Source: Holtermannia corniformis
Taxonomy: Eukaryota; Basidiomycota; Tremellomycetes; Holtermanniales
NCBI GenBank assembly: GCA_001599935.1
Contig: BCIJ01000021.1
Coordinates: forward strand, 106,676-161,056
Length of the DNA: 54,381 bases
Reading direction: 5' to 3'
The notes beneath the pieces are model-generated. The model did not search any database. It saw only the letters and a program-made list of their open reading frames with translations, and had not been told where the DNA came from. A program made the translations under genes and the position numbers. The stretch's first letter is position 1, and every line of letters begins with the position of its first letter. Shown piece by piece: positions 12,742-34,422 of the stretch.

Positions 12742-13223
12742 TTATCTCTCGGTCAGACAGAAGCACGAGCAAGAGGGTGTAACACCGCGAGTGCGCAAGG
12801 GACACACGGCAACGAGCGCGACGATTGACAGTGATCAGGCGGCCAACGGGTCCGTGCGCGCACCATCAAACGCTTCTAAGAGAGTGAGAACGATTCAAGA
12901 ACGATCAGATTTCTCTGCCAGATATTCTACACGTTCAGCGGGGACTTGAGTTCGCTCAGTTTCCGTTTGTCGTGAGTGGGAGGGAAATCCAGAGGAGGCA
13001 GGAAAAAGGCCCTCGTGATCTCTGGTGGTCACCTCAGCGCCTACTGAGTGTGGCCTAGCGTCAGGCAAGTCCATCAGGGACGTCTCTTTAACTTGTACGA
13101 ACCGCGCTTAACCACACCGGTTTCATCATAGTACACACTCGAGCATCATCGCAGCCGTTGCTCCCGCTGATCGACGACATCCACCTCATCCGTCACCGTC
13201 GACCAGCGAGCGCTCAACCCATC
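12742..13223 (+). other. Leader between primer site and gag start
   Basis: This roughly 480-base untranslated leader of the copia element has no open frame with family features. It would hold packaging and dimerisation signals, but none can be recognised by eye. Confidence 0.6.
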
Positions 13224-14627
13224 ATGGCGCAAGTCATCGAACTCCCTCCGATGCATCTCACTGTCGAGTCCACGATCAAGCTCTCGGGTGCGGACAATTA
13301 CCCAGCCTGGTTCAAGAGCATCCGTGCGCTCCTCCGCATGCACAACGTCTATCCGACTGCCATCGAACCGGACGAGAATGCGTTTGAGCACGCGCTGTGG
13401 GTGCGCAGAAACGATCGTGCGTCGTCCATCGTCAACATGAGTCTCTCCGAGTCGGTCGCGATGGTCATTCCCGATATCGACGACACATTCCTGCTGTTGG
13501 CGAACATCAAAGCCCGGTATGATGTCCCGCAGGATCCTGGCACGAGCCTGATGCTGGAAAATCAACTGGCTACTATCAAGATGCGCGACGATGAGACAAT
13601 CGCCGTCTTCTACAAGAAGCGTTTCGAACCGCTGGTTGCAAAACTGGCTCGTACGACGCGTCCTCAGTCAACCCAACAAGCCGGGCTGAGGCTGTGCAAC
13701 GCTCTTCCGCACCGATTCGTCCATGAGGCGCATGTGCTGGAGGGGCAAGCGCTCACCATGGGCATCCTGTTCACGTGCGAATTCGTTCTCGCGCAGGTGT
13801 CAAAGTGGGAGTCCGAACAAAGCTCGTTTGCTCCGCAGTCATACGCTCTGCAAACAAACGCGCCCTCTCCGACTGTGCGTCAGCCGCCCTCCGATCGCAA
13901 CCAGCAGCCGGCATCGGCGCAGCGTCCCGTGTGCTGGACTTGCGGCAAGGTCGGTCACGTGCAGAAGTTTTGTCGAAGCGGTCCGCCACGTCCCGGTTAT
14001 GCGCCTGCTCCATGGCAACAGAGCACACAACCTCCTTGGATGCAGTCGCCGCCGTGGGCACAGCAACAGCAGGCCTGGGGTCCTGCGCCCCCCTGGGTTC
14101 AGAACGGCAACAATCAGGCTGGCGAATGGGGGGGTCCACGTGGCCCTCCGACTCCGGCAACCGGTGCCAACACGACCGGAAAACCGATTGCGCGCTTCGC
14201 CGCCGTCAACGATGAAGTGCCGGTCTTCGGCATGATCGCGACAACCGCTGAGCGCTCCTTGCCCGGCAAAGTGATCATTGATTCGGGCGCAAACCGGCAC
14301 ATCTTTAATCACCAAGAGTGGTTCGCGGACCTCTCCCCGTGCAACCAGGCGATCCACCTCGCCGACAACGGTGTTATCAACGCCATCGGTAAGGGCACCG
14401 TTCGGCTGTACATCGACGACAGAGTCTTCACTATCGCCGATTGCTTATTGGCGCCAAAGTTCGGCACAAACCTCGTTAGCTCCACGATCCTCGCCAAACG
14501 AGGCATAGACCACATGACGGTGGGCACGCTCATGCGTTTCACCGCGCGTGGCATGCCGCTCTTCGACGCCTGCATGAACGAGCACGACGCGTGGCAATTG
14601 CAAGCGTACCCGCATCCGGATATGTGA
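13224..14627 (+). pseudogene. copia gag and protease, cut short by an LTR insertion
   Basis: I take ATG 13224 (MAQVIELPPMHLTVE) as the start; the frame is open upstream to 13158 but only with a TTG. The gag region begins KLSGADNYPAWFKSIRALL, the usual UBN2-type start. A CCHC knuckle lies at CWTCGKVGHVQKFC, followed by a Pro/Gln/Trp-rich linker and the aspartic protease site IIDSGANRHIF. The native frame is lost at 14623, where the inserted LTR adds one codon and a TGA. Removing the insertion and one copy of GGATA brings the frame directly into the integrase part at 15151. The break is therefore a clean insertion and not decay. Confidence 0.9.
14618..14622. repeat. Target-site duplication GGATA (left)
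   Basis: GGATA precedes the TGTGAGGG terminus and recurs at 15146-15150 after the GGCGTGACA terminus. Confidence 0.9.
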
Positions 14628-14950
14628 GGGCCTCGCCGAGAGAAGGCGATAGCCCGAAAGGAGAGGCAAGATCGACGCAGCGATCGGCCTCGAGAAGGCG
14701 GGACTCTAGATCGCGCGATGCGGAAAGCTAAGTTCCGCACTCGAGGGCTCTGGAGGATCGACGAGAGAGAATAGGATGAACACTATAATATTCGAGCGAT
14801 GGAGATACAACAGGAGACGAGAGAAACAAAAGGGCGCGCGCAGGCGCGGCCGCACCGCCGCAGCGCACAGACAGTGGTGCGATAGCACCAGTGGCACTTG
14901 GCGAGGCGGTCTCCTCGCATCCCGCACGTGGCACAGCCATAGGCGTGACA
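14623..14950 (+). repeat. Family-B LTR, full length (328 bp), inserted in the copia polyprotein
   Basis: It runs from TGTGAGGGCCTCGCCGAG to GGCGTGACA and contains an AT-rich CACTATAATATTCGAGCG box. One base follows before the run of N. The same sequence in reverse orientation makes up the split LTR around the copia element, and its end matches 1-118. Confidence 0.9.
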
Positions 14951-14951
14951 G

Positions 14952-15051
14952 NNNNNNNNNNNNNNNNNNNNNNNNNNNNNNNNNNNNNNNNNNNNNNNNN
15001 NNNNNNNNNNNNNNNNNNNNNNNNNNNNNNNNNNNNNNNNNNNNNNNNNNN
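14952..15051. other. Assembly gap of exactly 100 N
   Basis: The gap is flanked by a perfect 94-base direct repeat (14857-14950 and 15052-15145). A round 100 is usually a placeholder for unknown length. The missing bases are probably the 5' part of a second LTR together with the internal region of the inserted element. Confidence 0.9.
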
Positions 15052-15145
15052 GCCGCAGCGCACAGACAGTGGTGCGATAGCACCAGTGGCACTTGGCGAG
15101 GCGGTCTCCTCGCATCCCGCACGTGGCACAGCCATAGGCGTGACA
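15052..15145 (+). repeat. 3' part of a second family-B LTR copy
   Basis: This is identical to 14857-14950 and ends in GGCGTGACA, directly followed by the target duplication GGATA (15146-15150). Its start lies in the gap. Confidence 0.88.
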
Positions 15146-15150
15146 GGATA
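15146..15150. repeat. Target-site duplication GGATA (right)
   Basis: This is the second copy of GGATA. The copia frame resumes here in the same codon phase as before 14622. Confidence 0.9.
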
Positions 15151-17603
15151 ACAAGGCCGACTCAGTGCTGCTGCATGCGTCTCATGCCGTGGTACTCGAC
15201 GCTGACTTGTGGCACAAGCGCTTGGGTCATCTCTCGCATACGAAGATGGTCGAAACTGCAGAAGTATACACCGAGCATGCTGCAGATCTGTGTGCGACAC
15301 TCCACAAATGCGAGGCGTGCCAGTTGGCCAAGCAGACGCGCGCCGCGCATGAACGTTCGACTGCAAGAGCGTCGACGCAGCTCGAACTGGTTCATCTTGA
15401 CCTCGCCGGCCCTTTCCCGCCCGCAGTGATCGGCCGCTGGGAATACTGGCTGATCGCCGTCGACGACTACTCGCGCTGGATGACGATCATCCCCATTCAA
15501 TCGAAGGCTGACGCGTTCCCCGCTTTCCAACATCTCGCCCGGATGTGGGAGGGCGGCACCGGCTACAAATTCGGCACGATTCGCACAGACGGGGGAGGCG
15601 AATTTGTCAGTCGTCACTTCGAGAACTGGCTACTCGAGCATCACATCAAGTGGCAGCGTACGGCGCCCTATAATCCTGAAAGCAACGGACGCGCTGAACG
15701 CACCAATCGGACTGTCAAAGAGGGTATCGTGGCGATGCTCAACGGTGCCGGTCTTGGGAAAGAGTACTGGAGCGAGGCGGCTCAGGTGTTTGTGCTTGTC
15801 AAGAACAAGACTCCTCACAAGGCCCTGCCGCGCAACACGACGCCCTACCAGCTGTTCTTCTCCAAGATCGTTGACGGAAAGCGCGTCGAACCGCTCAAGC
15901 CAGACATCTCTCACTTGCGCGTGTTCGGCTCCAAGGTCTTCGCGTTGCAAAACAATCCAACAACGCTCGAACCACGCGCGGCGCGCGGCATTCTTATCGG
16001 GTACAAGCCTGATGCGAAGGCCTACAAGGTACTGCACGAAGGCGGCACTCGCGCCATGTTTTATCGCTACGAGGATGTCGATGTCTGGGAAGACGTACCA
16101 GGCAACGCGACGGCCATGCTTGCCGCACAAGGCGACGAGGACTGGTCCGACGCAATTGCTGCCGAACTGAAGTCGATCGAAGACAACAACACGTGGACTG
16201 TGGTCCCGCAGAACAATACTCGCTCGCTCCCCACGAAATTCGTCTTGCGCAAGAAGGACGACGGCACGTTGAAAGCCCGCCTCGTCGTGATGGGCAACTT
16301 CCAACGCATGGGCGAATACGGTAAAACGTACGCACCGGTCGTCGGGTTGCCGTTCGTTCGGGTGCTCTTCGCGATCACGGTGCAAAAGGGCTGGGCGATG
16401 CGCCAACTGGACGTAAGCTCCGCGTTCCTCTACGGCAATATCGACCGTGATGTGTACGTGCGTCCACCGCGCGGACATGAACTGCCGGCTGGATTCGTGT
16501 ATAAACTCAACAAAGCACTGTACGGACTCAAGCAGTCACCGCGGTTGTGGCACGCGACACTCTGTGATGCCCTGCGCAAACAGTCTTTCCAAGCGTGGGA
16601 TGGCGACACGTGTTTCTGGTATCGCCACGACGCAATGTTGGTCATCTACGTCGACGACGGCGTAGTGTCGGCCAAGTCGGATGATATCGCGCGTGGCGTC
16701 ATCGAGCGATTGGGGGACGCGTTCAAGATCAAAGACATGGGCGTGCCAAAGCTTTTCCTCGGCATGGACGTCTTCGTCCAGCCGAATTCGATCACGATCA
16801 GCCAATCAACATACATCAATCGCGTGCTTCGTAACAGAGGATATCACGACGCCAACTCTCTGCGGACTCCCATCATGTCGAATGTGTCGTTGACGAAGAC
16901 CGCGCTGCTCGACGACGCGCACATATCGACATACAGGTCTATGCTTGGCGAGATTGGCTACCTGGCAATGTGCACCAGGCCGGACATCGCGTTTGCGCAT
17001 GCGCATCTCTGCACCTTCCAGCAAGCTCCGCAGAAGCACCACTTGGCCGCAGTCGGCAACATTCTGGGCTACCTGAAAGGCACACAAGAGCTTGGCCTCT
17101 CCTACACCGGGGAGGGAGCATGTGCTCTGTACGCAGACGCAGACTACGGCAACGATCAGCGCAAGACTCAATCCATGTCCGCGCATGTCATCGAGGTCGG
17201 CAGCGGCACTGTCGCATGGAAAGCCAAGCTTCGCCATGGCGTAGCCACTTCGACAACCGAGGCCGAATGCGTGGCTCTGTTCTACGGCACGCGCGACATG
17301 GTGCACCTGCAGGGCCTGCTCAAGCTCGTTGGTGCCGACCCGCGGTGCACAATCTACGAGGACAATCAAGCCGCGGTAGCGTTGTCCCTGGGCGAGGGAC
17401 ACAGTCACCGCTCTCGTCACTTCGCAACCAAGGTCAACTACGTCCGGCAACAGCTGGACGAGAACAAACATCTCTCGATCCAGCACGTACGCTCGAAGCT
17501 TCAGAAAGCCGACGGACTCACCAAGGTCCTCGGCCCGATAGCTTTCGAAGATTGGCGCAAGCTTCTCAGCATGCAGAACGCGCCTTCGCCTGGGGGGGTG
17601 TAA
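15151..17603 (+). pseudogene. copia integrase, reverse transcriptase and RNase H (separated from gag by the insertion)
   Basis: The frame is intact from the insertion point to TAA 17601-17603, which overlaps the first bases of the 3' LTR. The order is copia-type: GAG-pre-integrase with the HHCC zinc site (LWHKRLGHLSH ... CEACQLAKQ), then the integrase core with its Asp residues (LVHLDLAGPF, TIRTDGGGEF) and Glu in NPESNGRAERTNR. The reverse transcriptase follows (QLDVSSAFLYG, ALYGLKQSPRLWH, VIYVDDG). RNase H comes last (LYADADYG, STTEAECVAL, YEDNQAAVALS). All catalytic motifs I can check are present and there are no internal stops. Without gag and protease upstream this copy cannot be autonomous. 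No ATG lies near its 5' end, so it is probably untranslated here. Confidence 0.92.
17592..17598 (+). promoter_or_regulatory. Polypurine tract of the copia element
   Basis: Seven G residues directly abut the TG of the 3' LTR, in the place where plus-strand DNA synthesis is primed. The tract also encodes glycines at the end of the RNase H frame. Confidence 0.85.
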
Positions 17604-32394: not shown

Positions 32395-34422
32395 CTAGGG
32401 TTCCGGCTTGAGACGCTTCGAGGCGCGTCGCGCGGTGTTGAGCGTAGATGGACGTGGTCTGGGTTTGCCTTTGACCACGGGTTTGACTTCTTCGACCGAG
32501 GCCGGTGTTGCCTTGATGGAAGCGCGACGCGATTTTGTCTGAGCAACCGGCTTGACGTTTTCTTTCTGCGGTGTTTCTTTTGTCGCTTGTTTTGTTCGCG
32601 TGCGAGTGTTGGGCTTTGCACTATCGCTTGGTGATGGCTCATCGACCGGTTTCTGGAATGGCATCTCGCGCGTGATGCGGGCGATCGAGCCCCAGACGGC
32701 CTCTTCCCACGCTAGCCAGTCTTGCAACGCCTAGTTGCTGTAAGCTTGGGTTCACCGGCGGATCAAACGACTGACCTCATTGGCACCATCGGCCAGCGAC
32801 GATGCCCTCTCCCACGTATCATCCTCCGGCGGGTAGCCCTTCCACCGGACTCTGAATTGACCATCCTTGTCCGTCCGACTACCCTTGCGGCAGACAATCT
32901 TCTCTACCTCGTAGACGTCTTCGGCGGCTTGCTCTTCTTGCTTGAGTTTCTCCTGCCGAGCCTTGACTGCCTCCTCGTCGTAGTCTCCCACGAAAGCGGC
33001 TTTGCTCGCGTGCCACGCGTACCGCTCTTCGTCGCACCACGCCGGCATCGCGCTAGACTCGACAATCTCCGGATCGTACGTTGGCGGAGGGAGATCAGCT
33101 AAGCTGCTATACCCTTTGCGGAGGTAGGCGTTGACATAGCGGTGTGCCCAGCACAGTGCGTTTTCAAAATCAAGCACGCGCATACCGGGACGGAGGCCGA
33201 TCGTCCAGGCGTGAGGCGGTGCTTCGCCGAGTCTCGCCCAATAACGCCATTGGTTATCGTACAGCCACTTGAGGCCCGCAGCTTCCATCTCGACAGAGTT
33301 GATCGCGGGCTTGGTGAACATGCGCTGGAGAAAGTAGCGCGAGCCAGGCCCGCACGTCGCAAAGTTACGGTAGAAGAACTTCATGTGTGGCGAGCCGTTG
33401 AGGTAGCAGAGGATGTTGAGGGAGAGGAAACCGCCAAGAGTCGGCAGCGTCTGAAGAACGTGGCTGGCGTCGACGGCGTATACGCACTGGCGGAGGCGTT
33501 CGGGCAGCCCCGACTCCATGACGGCCTTGACAAACCGAAGCGTGGCGGCGAAATGCGGCAAGTTCTTGCCAAAGTAGATTGTGGGCGGTACGAGCTGGAA
33601 GCCAGAAGTGTAGATGACTTCTTTGCGGATGATAGACTTGTTGTAGAGGATAGATTCGTACTTGTGAAAGTCCCTGTCGTAGTTTTTCCAATTTGGGATC
33701 TCTCCCAGACCATCGATGAGCTCTTGCCACGTCGTGCCCATGTAAAAGCCGCAGTAGAGGAAGACACGGACTATAGACTCAGCCGTAGTCTAAACAACCC
33801 GAGAGCGCGACTCACAGCAAATCTCCTCATTACTCTGATCCCCATTCGCAATGATGTCCCCCTTCATCTTGATGCTACCAGCGTCCAGCTCACGAAACAC
33901 ATTCCCAATATGTTCCTTCTTCATCGTCTCATCCTCTGTCAATTGATCCCTCGGCACACCCGCATCACGCAGGTGCTGCATCTTCTGACGCTCGGCGCAG
34001 AACCGAAAGAACAGGTACATCCAGTGGTTGTCGATGGGAGCGGTGATAGACGGACGACCGTGTGGTTCGAGCGTTGCGTACTCTGTCTCGGCCTCTTGGA
34101 CATGCTCTGCGTGCTTCTTTTGTTGAGCCGGTGACTCGGACAGGGGGCGTTGCTCGCATTGCTGTGATGTTGGCGTCAGACGCTAGGAGCCGGTGACAAC
34201 TCGAGCCGGACTGACCTCTTTTGGTGCAGAGATATCAATAGCAGCACTTTCAGTAGTATCAACGTCCATGTCGACCGGCACCGCTTCGGCAGGCAGCTCT
34301 GATGAACTCGGTTTCATCTCGGCGTCGTCGAGGCTTTCGGATTTGGGTGCCGGGCTCGGCGTCACGGCCTTTGTCTCGGCTGTGACATTTTCAGAATCGT
34401 TCTTGCTGCTTGTCGGTGACAT
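32395..34422 (-). CDS. 5-hmdU-kinase-helical / aGPT-PPlase-like domain fused to a chromodomain
   Basis: Four exons (34216-34422, 33816-34161, 32776-33770, 32395-32730) join in frame to 627 residues. Residues 1-115 are a polar linker. From about 116 the protein shows the helical domain named after phage 5-hydroxymethyl-dU DNA kinases: MYLFFRFCAERQKM, TEDETMKKEHIGNVFRELD. It continues with LYCGFYMGTTWQELIDGLGE, GFQLVPPTIYF, LGGFLSLNILCYLNG and the NFATCGPGSRYFLQRMF (GPG) motif of alpha-glutamyl/putrescinyl-thymine pyrophosphorylase-like proteins. At about 471-516 lies a chromodomain (YEVEKIVCRK, FRVRWKGYPPEDDTWE) with its aromatic cage residues. A basic C-terminal tail follows (KPRPRPSTLNTARRASKR). 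The family is known from DNA thymine hypermodification; a chromatin-directed role is inferred from the fusion. No TET/JBP oxygenase is in this window. Confidence 0.85.

Follow-up and report, generated by a model that had tools for sequence, protein, structure and literature searches.

What would a protein domain known from phage thymidine-hypermodification loci do in a fungus, where it is fused to a chromodomain? This question is raised by a gene in a 54,381-nucleotide stretch of the Holtermannia corniformis genome (GenBank assembly GCA_001599935.1, contig BCIJ01000021.1, positions 106,676 to 161,056; hereafter the window), where it occupies positions 32395-34422 on the minus strand. Our preferred answer, to which we give a probability of about 0.42, is that the gene encodes a chromatin-tethered, base-flipping reader of DNA in chromatin methylated at histone H3 lysine 9 (H3K9), and probably not an enzyme acting alone.

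The gene has four exons, and the GT-AG introns between them measure 54, 45 and 45 nt; the spliced model yields exactly the 627 aa given in a preliminary description of the locus. All motifs named in that description were present in the translation (FCAERQKM, TEDETMKKEHIGNVFREL, GPG, VEKI, RWKGY and TWE). The splice acceptor following GAGTCTATAG keeps the 627-aa frame open, and exon 3 is an uninterrupted frame that spans most of the helical domain and almost the entire chromodomain. Pfam profiles confirmed both halves of the proposed architecture, with HMUDK_hel (PF18723) matching residues 115-398 (230.9 bits against a cut-off of 25, E=2.6e-68) and Chromo (PF00385) matching residues 471-521 at the C-terminal side (48.1 bits against a cut-off of 25.1, E=1.1e-12). 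Iyer et al. 2013 (NAR) reportedly predicted these families. An aGPT-PPlase assignment, which the preliminary description had placed beside HMUDK_hel, was not recovered: Pfam returned HMUDK_hel and Chromo only. The protein had one match in PHROGs, to a family of unknown function (63.8 bits), and matched no family in NCBIfam. When the whole genome (20.2 Mb in 55 contigs) was searched in six frames, this gene was the one HMUDK_hel match, as expected of a single-copy domain.

We found the same fusion in other fungi. Searching some 5.8 billion proteins at E 0.001, with scoring of the 7992 candidates that shared the most words, returned 40 homologues; according to precomputed Pfam columns, 36 of these carry both domains, three HMUDK_hel alone and one Chromo alone. 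The best named homologues came from Tremellales sp. Uapishka_1, Naematelia and Kwoniella, the last represented by seven species. Other named sources among the Tremellomycetes were Kockovaella, Vanrija and two Cutaneotrichosporon, and Parajaminaea (Ustilaginomycotina, Microstromatales) was a named source outside this class. Searching with the helical domain only gave 61 matches and added two proteins, the prokaryote-like P0080 and P0044 of Ceraceosorus guamensis (Ustilaginomycotina). The latter has HMUDK_hel without a chromodomain and was the only named unfused fungal protein found. Eighteen fungal proteins, once aligned, showed invariant residues in both domains, among them R127, N156, D162, GPG 325-327, C391 and W392 of the helical domain and E472, W494 and G496 of the chromodomain; the Trp392 position was Trp in all 18 of these as well as in 34/34 rows of a second alignment. 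The HMUDK_hel-chromodomain architecture is real and conserved.

No match in either the full-length (40) or the domain-only (61) search carried the name Cryptococcus, the presence of Cryptococcus proteomes in the database being unchecked, and there was no Tremella or Saitozyma homologue among the 40. According to the available part of PMC11185503, all Kwoniella species have Dnmt5 and DnmtX, and Cryptococcus lost DnmtX. The presence of the fusion in seven Kwoniella species and under no Cryptococcus name parallels this loss. At best this is one co-loss, and it is weakened by Tremella and Saitozyma, for which the same part of PMC11185503 reports no DnmtX loss, yet which gave no fusion homologue.

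Outside the fungi, HMUDK_hel is found in phages and plasmids. A tblastn search with LuckyBarnes gp38 matched 491 of 50,697 phage records, and one with P0080 matched 17 of 72,556 plasmids. We read the surroundings of 13 phage and plasmid loci, with flanks of 2.5 to 8 kb that were shorter at record ends, and genes for base or nucleotide modification were nearby at nine of them (Table 1). Within the stretches read, the Flagellatimonas, Natrinema, Parabacteroides and Nodularia loci had no counted modification gene. The Pfam family and the phage neighbourhoods thus bear out the earlier claim that the fungal protein is homologous to proteins of thymine-hypermodification loci. In phages M6, ViI and phiW-14, hypermodified thymidine is made via a 5-hydroxymethyldeoxyuridine (5-hmdU) intermediate that is phosphorylated by a 5-hmdU DNA kinase, as described in the available part of PMC6449724. 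Because the kinase and the helical protein of M6 are encoded by separate neighbouring genes, the helical domain need not be a kinase, and we infer that in phages it handles the base. No kinase was among the products scanned or named in the LuckyBarnes stretch. Scans of viral contigs with the fungal domain alignment and then with the Vibrio phage protein gave zero loci, as did a scan of genome contigs with P0080, and a contig scan with the LuckyBarnes protein gave two.

At the plasmid loci L013, L020 and L022, HMUDK_hel lies near helix-turn-helix, ImmA/IrrE and nucleotide-metabolism genes, with a restriction endonuclease also present at L020; these regions look like mobile or defence islands. 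The gene order on the Parabacteroides plasmid is a TIR-domain gene, an unknown gene, HMUDK_hel and a radical SAM gene (L021).

The phage proteins M6 gp055, PaMx11 gp50, ViI Vi01_130c and LuckyBarnes gp38 all match the same Pfam domain far over its cut-off, and they have the residues R, N-xx-R-xx-D, GPG and C in common with the fungal fusion. The fusion differs from them by its added chromodomain and by the replacement of an Asp, a Gly and a Glu. We located these differences in an alignment that set 12 fungal rows against 13 non-fungal ones, namely P0080 and 12 proteins from phages or plasmids. The common core was present in the 627-aa protein and in nearly all rows, with the second R absent in one fungal row and the P of GPG absent in two prokaryotic or phage rows. 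The Asp, Gly and Glu (positions 264, 288 and 348 of P0010) were kept in 13/13 non-fungal rows. In the nine complete fused rows, the Asp was replaced by Tyr, Phe or Asn, the Gly by Tyr, Phe or Thr, and the Glu by Trp, the last in all nine; two fungal rows were truncated in this region and were not counted. The unfused Ceraceosorus row retained all three residues, its Glu lying near the end of a possibly mis-spliced model. A midpoint-rooted tree of 23 rows, from which the two truncated rows were dropped, placed the ten fungi in one group (100/100), with Ceraceosorus branching first. Considering that only fused rows have changed and that Ceraceosorus branches first, we suggest that the residue change coincides with the fusion, a link for which there is one unfused example.

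The predicted fold of a homologue model resembles the helix-hairpin-helix DNA-glycosylase superfamily, and DNA glycosylases accounted for 43 of the 50 structural entries among the matches listed. The nearest solved structure was PUGT (PDB 8z2n), a phage thymidine-hypermodifying transferase of the PUGT/ADDT type that acts as a 5-phosphomethyldeoxyuridine (5-PmdU) glycinyltransferase. Sequence identity was 10%, with a weak profile match, and by Pfam the fungal protein is not an ADDT. The SP10 5-hmdU DNA kinase was also matched by fold. This resemblance is in line with the base-handling type of domain that had been proposed. Against the chains of the PDB, the fungal helical-domain profile hit only two PPAR-gamma entries with E above 1, and PaMx11 gp50 had zero matches.

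The chromodomain has three aromatic residues, Tyr470 (just outside the Pfam match), Trp494 and Tyr497, which we presume to form the aromatic cage, going by the cage positions of HP1. Its closest solved sequences were CDYL and MPP8, followed by the plant methyltransferase ZMET2, HP1, CDYL2 and Clr4, and its closest neighbours by fold were MPP8, Rhino and Chp1. The Tyr-Trp-Tyr cage is shared with HP1, Chp1, Clr4, MPP8 and CDYL. All three cage positions were aromatic in 55 of 81 proteins, 52 by a pattern that itself required aromatics at two positions and an aromatic or His at the third, and three by eye; the other 26 lacked a chromodomain-like stretch, many being fragments. Together, the cage and the structural neighbours suggest that the mark bound would be methylated H3K9. 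In a rough look at a retroelement origin, the best of eight other chromodomain loci of the genome was about 40% identical over 48 residues.

The C-terminal tail of the 627-aa protein has both a SUMO-type motif and a basic cluster. Among the tails of 34 homologous sequences, taken as the last 30 residues and coming in some cases from poor gene models, the SUMO-type motif occurred in 18 against 1.75 in shuffles and the basic cluster in 22 against 13.5, counts that were not reached in 1000 shuffles and that are inflated by kinship among the sequences.

We propose that the gene encodes a single-copy chromatin protein that is probably nuclear. Its helical domain would have the helix-hairpin-helix glycosylase-like fold, by which a base can be flipped out of the double helix. 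The phage domain may present the base to neighbouring enzymes, namely 5-hmdU kinases, thymidylate-synthase-like enzymes and TET-associated glycosyltransferases. The fungal step would consist of the fusion to the chromodomain together with the change in the pocket (Asp to Tyr, Phe or Asn, loss of Gly, Glu to Trp). After this step, the protein would no longer serve a kinase, nor catalyse a reaction on its own. Instead, it would read a 5-substituted pyrimidine, most likely 5-methylcytosine or an oxidised derivative, in H3K9-methylated chromatin. More tentatively, we suggest that a phage-derived base-flipping domain, retooled by the Glu-to-Trp and Asp-to-aromatic changes, senses or helps install a modified pyrimidine specifically in such chromatin. 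Of the two roles offered by the preliminary description, enzyme or reader, the results lean towards the reader. An enzyme acting on a thymine-like base found no support: searches for a kinase (with weak controls) and for a TET-associated glycosyltransferase (TAGT) were without a match, and residues invariant in relatives have been replaced.

A comparison with phage proteins cautions against the step from the Trp to a protein that is no enzyme on its own. Of six PUGT/ADDT-type rows, three have Lys after a similar Cys and two have Gly; the sixth, an ADDT-family protein of Vibrio phage D506 (L006:5218-6426), has Trp there. The position therefore varies between subfamilies, and a Trp there is no proof of lost catalysis. 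Because of this recount, we slightly lowered our estimate for a reader and slightly raised that for a writer.

A writer is the main rival, and we consider it unlikely. Here the domain would belong to an undescribed fungal pathway that modifies a base in H3K9-methylated chromatin, alone or with a partner encoded elsewhere, such as a TET/JBP-like oxygenase, or a kinase or transferase that has escaped recognition. This would fit the location of the family in modification loci, the core residues kept in nearly all rows, and the Trp found after the Cys in a phage ADDT-type protein. The LuckyBarnes domain adjoins glycosyltransferases and so may use partners other than a kinase. One TET/JBP-like 2-oxoglutarate oxygenase candidate was found on contig C3 at about 970391-970897 (L017:3373-4422), with an HRD that we take to be the HxD-type motif and a downstream His/Arg. 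Against the writer stands the score of this candidate, which reached 32.6 bits after two exons were joined, compared with a Pfam cut-off of 34.9; a search with its spliced form at E 0.001, over 1488 candidate sequences, returned no homologue. The expanded TET/JBP set expected in the preliminary description found no support, this being the one candidate in the genome. The genome had zero matches to the HMUDK kinase (PF18748) and P-loop kinase 3 (PF18751) profiles, whose controls gave signals only under cut-off; PaMx11 gp49, too, scored under the PF18748 cut-off, so these profiles can miss kinases. There were also zero matches to TAGT, for which one control was over cut-off, and to ADDT (PF18724) and aGPT-Pplase3 (PF18746), for which the controls were silent everywhere too. 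A writer would further have to accommodate the loss of the otherwise invariant Asp, Gly and Glu in the fused clade.

Other chromatin and DNA-methylation genes are present in the genome. A Pre-SET (H3K9-methyltransferase-type) match and a DNA_methylase match were over cut-off; next to the latter, an RFD exon was over its cut-off and a BAH exon below. An SRA match (65.8 bits, with one stop, probably in an intron, read through) is separate from the fusion gene. Of 35 chromodomain matches, 34 were over cut-off, the fusion gene included. One chromodomain match lies in a 1164-aa frame at C3:973757, about 3 kb from the TET/JBP candidate, and is possibly part of a retroelement.

The protein could also be a structural heterochromatin protein that combines a general DNA-binding module with a chromodomain and has no specificity for a modified base. 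The changed pocket residues, the tail with its nuclear-localisation-type and SUMO-type motifs and the DNA-binding fold class all agree with this. However, strong constraint is evident at N-xx-R-xx-D, GPG, the Cys and the Trp that has become invariant, and bare DNA binding does not obviously need a conserved pocket. We hold this explanation to be about as unlikely as a writer.

Improbable, in our view, is a DNA glycosylase or lyase directed to H3K9-methylated chromatin, where it would remove a modified base such as 5-methylcytosine or 5-hydroxymethyluracil. The prevalence of glycosylases among the structural matches favours such an activity, and by eye the stretch PTLGGFLSLNILCYLN reads like a helix-hairpin-helix. 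However, no Asp was seen by eye in the segment after the hairpin, FATCGPGSRYF, where we would expect the catalytic residue, taking the EndoIII position for reference. A Phe seemingly replaces the EndoIII-type Lys in 25/25 aligned rows, judged by eye, and the nearest match, PUGT, is a transferase. Least probable is an origin in a transposon or a defence system: taken over from a phage or plasmid, the factor would have been retained to counter mobile DNA, and its chromodomain would target silenced elements. In its favour, the fungal group is nested in a phage and plasmid family, helix-turn-helix and ImmA/IrrE genes lie near the copies at 3/6 plasmid loci, and the Kwoniella-Cryptococcus distribution would agree with the DnmtX parallel. 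Against it, the gene is single-copy and its architecture conserved, PADLOC returned no family when run on the Kockovaella homologue, a loss confined to one genus counts as one event, and the same parallel fails in Tremella and Saitozyma.

The coordinates of the gene's parts and the genes near phage and plasmid HMUDK_hel copies are collected in Table 1. Elsewhere in the window, at 13092-17600 on the plus strand, are Ty1/copia-type retroelement frames (gag, integrase and reverse transcriptase).

Table 1. Parts of the fusion gene, in window positions, and modification-related genes near HMUDK_hel in phages and plasmids.
Feature	Position	Strand	Content	Basis
Exon 1	34216..34422	-	residues 1-69; acidic/Ser-rich low-complexity N-terminus	splice model
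Exon 2	33816..34161	-	residues 70-184 and first base of codon 185; HMUDK_hel start, FCAERQKM and GNVFRELD motifs	splice model, Pfam
Exon 3	32776..33770	-	residues 185-516, one open frame; HMUDK_hel remainder, linker, chromodomain nearly whole	splice model, Pfam
Exon 4	32395..32730	-	residues 517-627 and stop; end of chromodomain match, basic C-terminal tail	splice model
HMUDK_hel	33130..34026	-	residues 115-398, split by intron 33771-33815	PF18723, 230.9 bits; DNA-glycosylase-like fold of homologue
Trp392 codon	33148..33150	-	replaces Glu of LCE motif in phage, plasmid and prokaryote-like relatives	alignments
Chromodomain	32716..32913	-	residues 471-521, split by intron 32731-32775	PF00385, 48.1 bits
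C-terminal tail	32401..32430	-	basic cluster RRASKRLK overlapping LKPE; resembles a nuclear localisation signal and a SUMO consensus	tail motif count
M6			5-hmdU DNA kinase gp054 adjoining HMUDK_hel gp055, thymidylate synthase	
PaMx11			kinase-like gp49, ADDT/PUGT gp46, thymidylate synthase	
Lucky3			P-loop kinase, thymidylate synthase	
LuckyBarnes (L005)			thymidylate synthase, two TET-associated glycosyltransferases	
Vibrio D506			ADDT, thymidylate synthase, dNMP kinase, pyrophosphohydrolase	
ViI			MazG-like	
Rhizobium plasmid			dCTP deaminase	
Haloarcula			dTMP kinase	
Nostoc			thymidylate synthase, pyrophosphohydrolase	

The fusion has partial counterparts among known systems. The phage systems pair the helical domain with a kinase in cases such as M6, whereas the fungal genome had no kinase match with the two weakly controlled profiles. 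HP1-type chromodomains are joined to a chromoshadow, SET or methyltransferase domain, and the fungal one to a base-handling helical domain. In UHRF1, a base-flipping SRA domain is combined with a reader of H3K9 methylation. By analogy with UHRF1 and the plant chromomethylases, the fusion would likewise couple recognition of a DNA base with that of methylated H3; unlike these proteins, it has no SRA or methyltransferase domain by Pfam. Few protein folds are known to recognise a DNA base and a histone mark jointly, the SRA proteins and chromomethylases among them. We found no published description of the fusion among the best matches in the searchable literature, whose coverage excludes Iyer et al. 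2013 and the PUGT structure paper of Wen et al. 2024, and a term search of the available part of PMC12730594 (2025), on fungal TET/JBP transposons, found no Tremellomycete term.

By joining a phage thymidine-hypermodification domain to a chromodomain, the conserved fusion adds another candidate reader of a base and a histone mark, with clear residues to mutate and with hosts for laboratory work, such as Kwoniella, that are non-pathogenic. If our reading is true, it would represent a second, SRA-independent coupling of histone methylation to the state of DNA bases, and may expose an undescribed base modification in basidiomycete heterochromatin. The fusion gives a direct route to ask whether this heterochromatin carries an unrecognised modified base.
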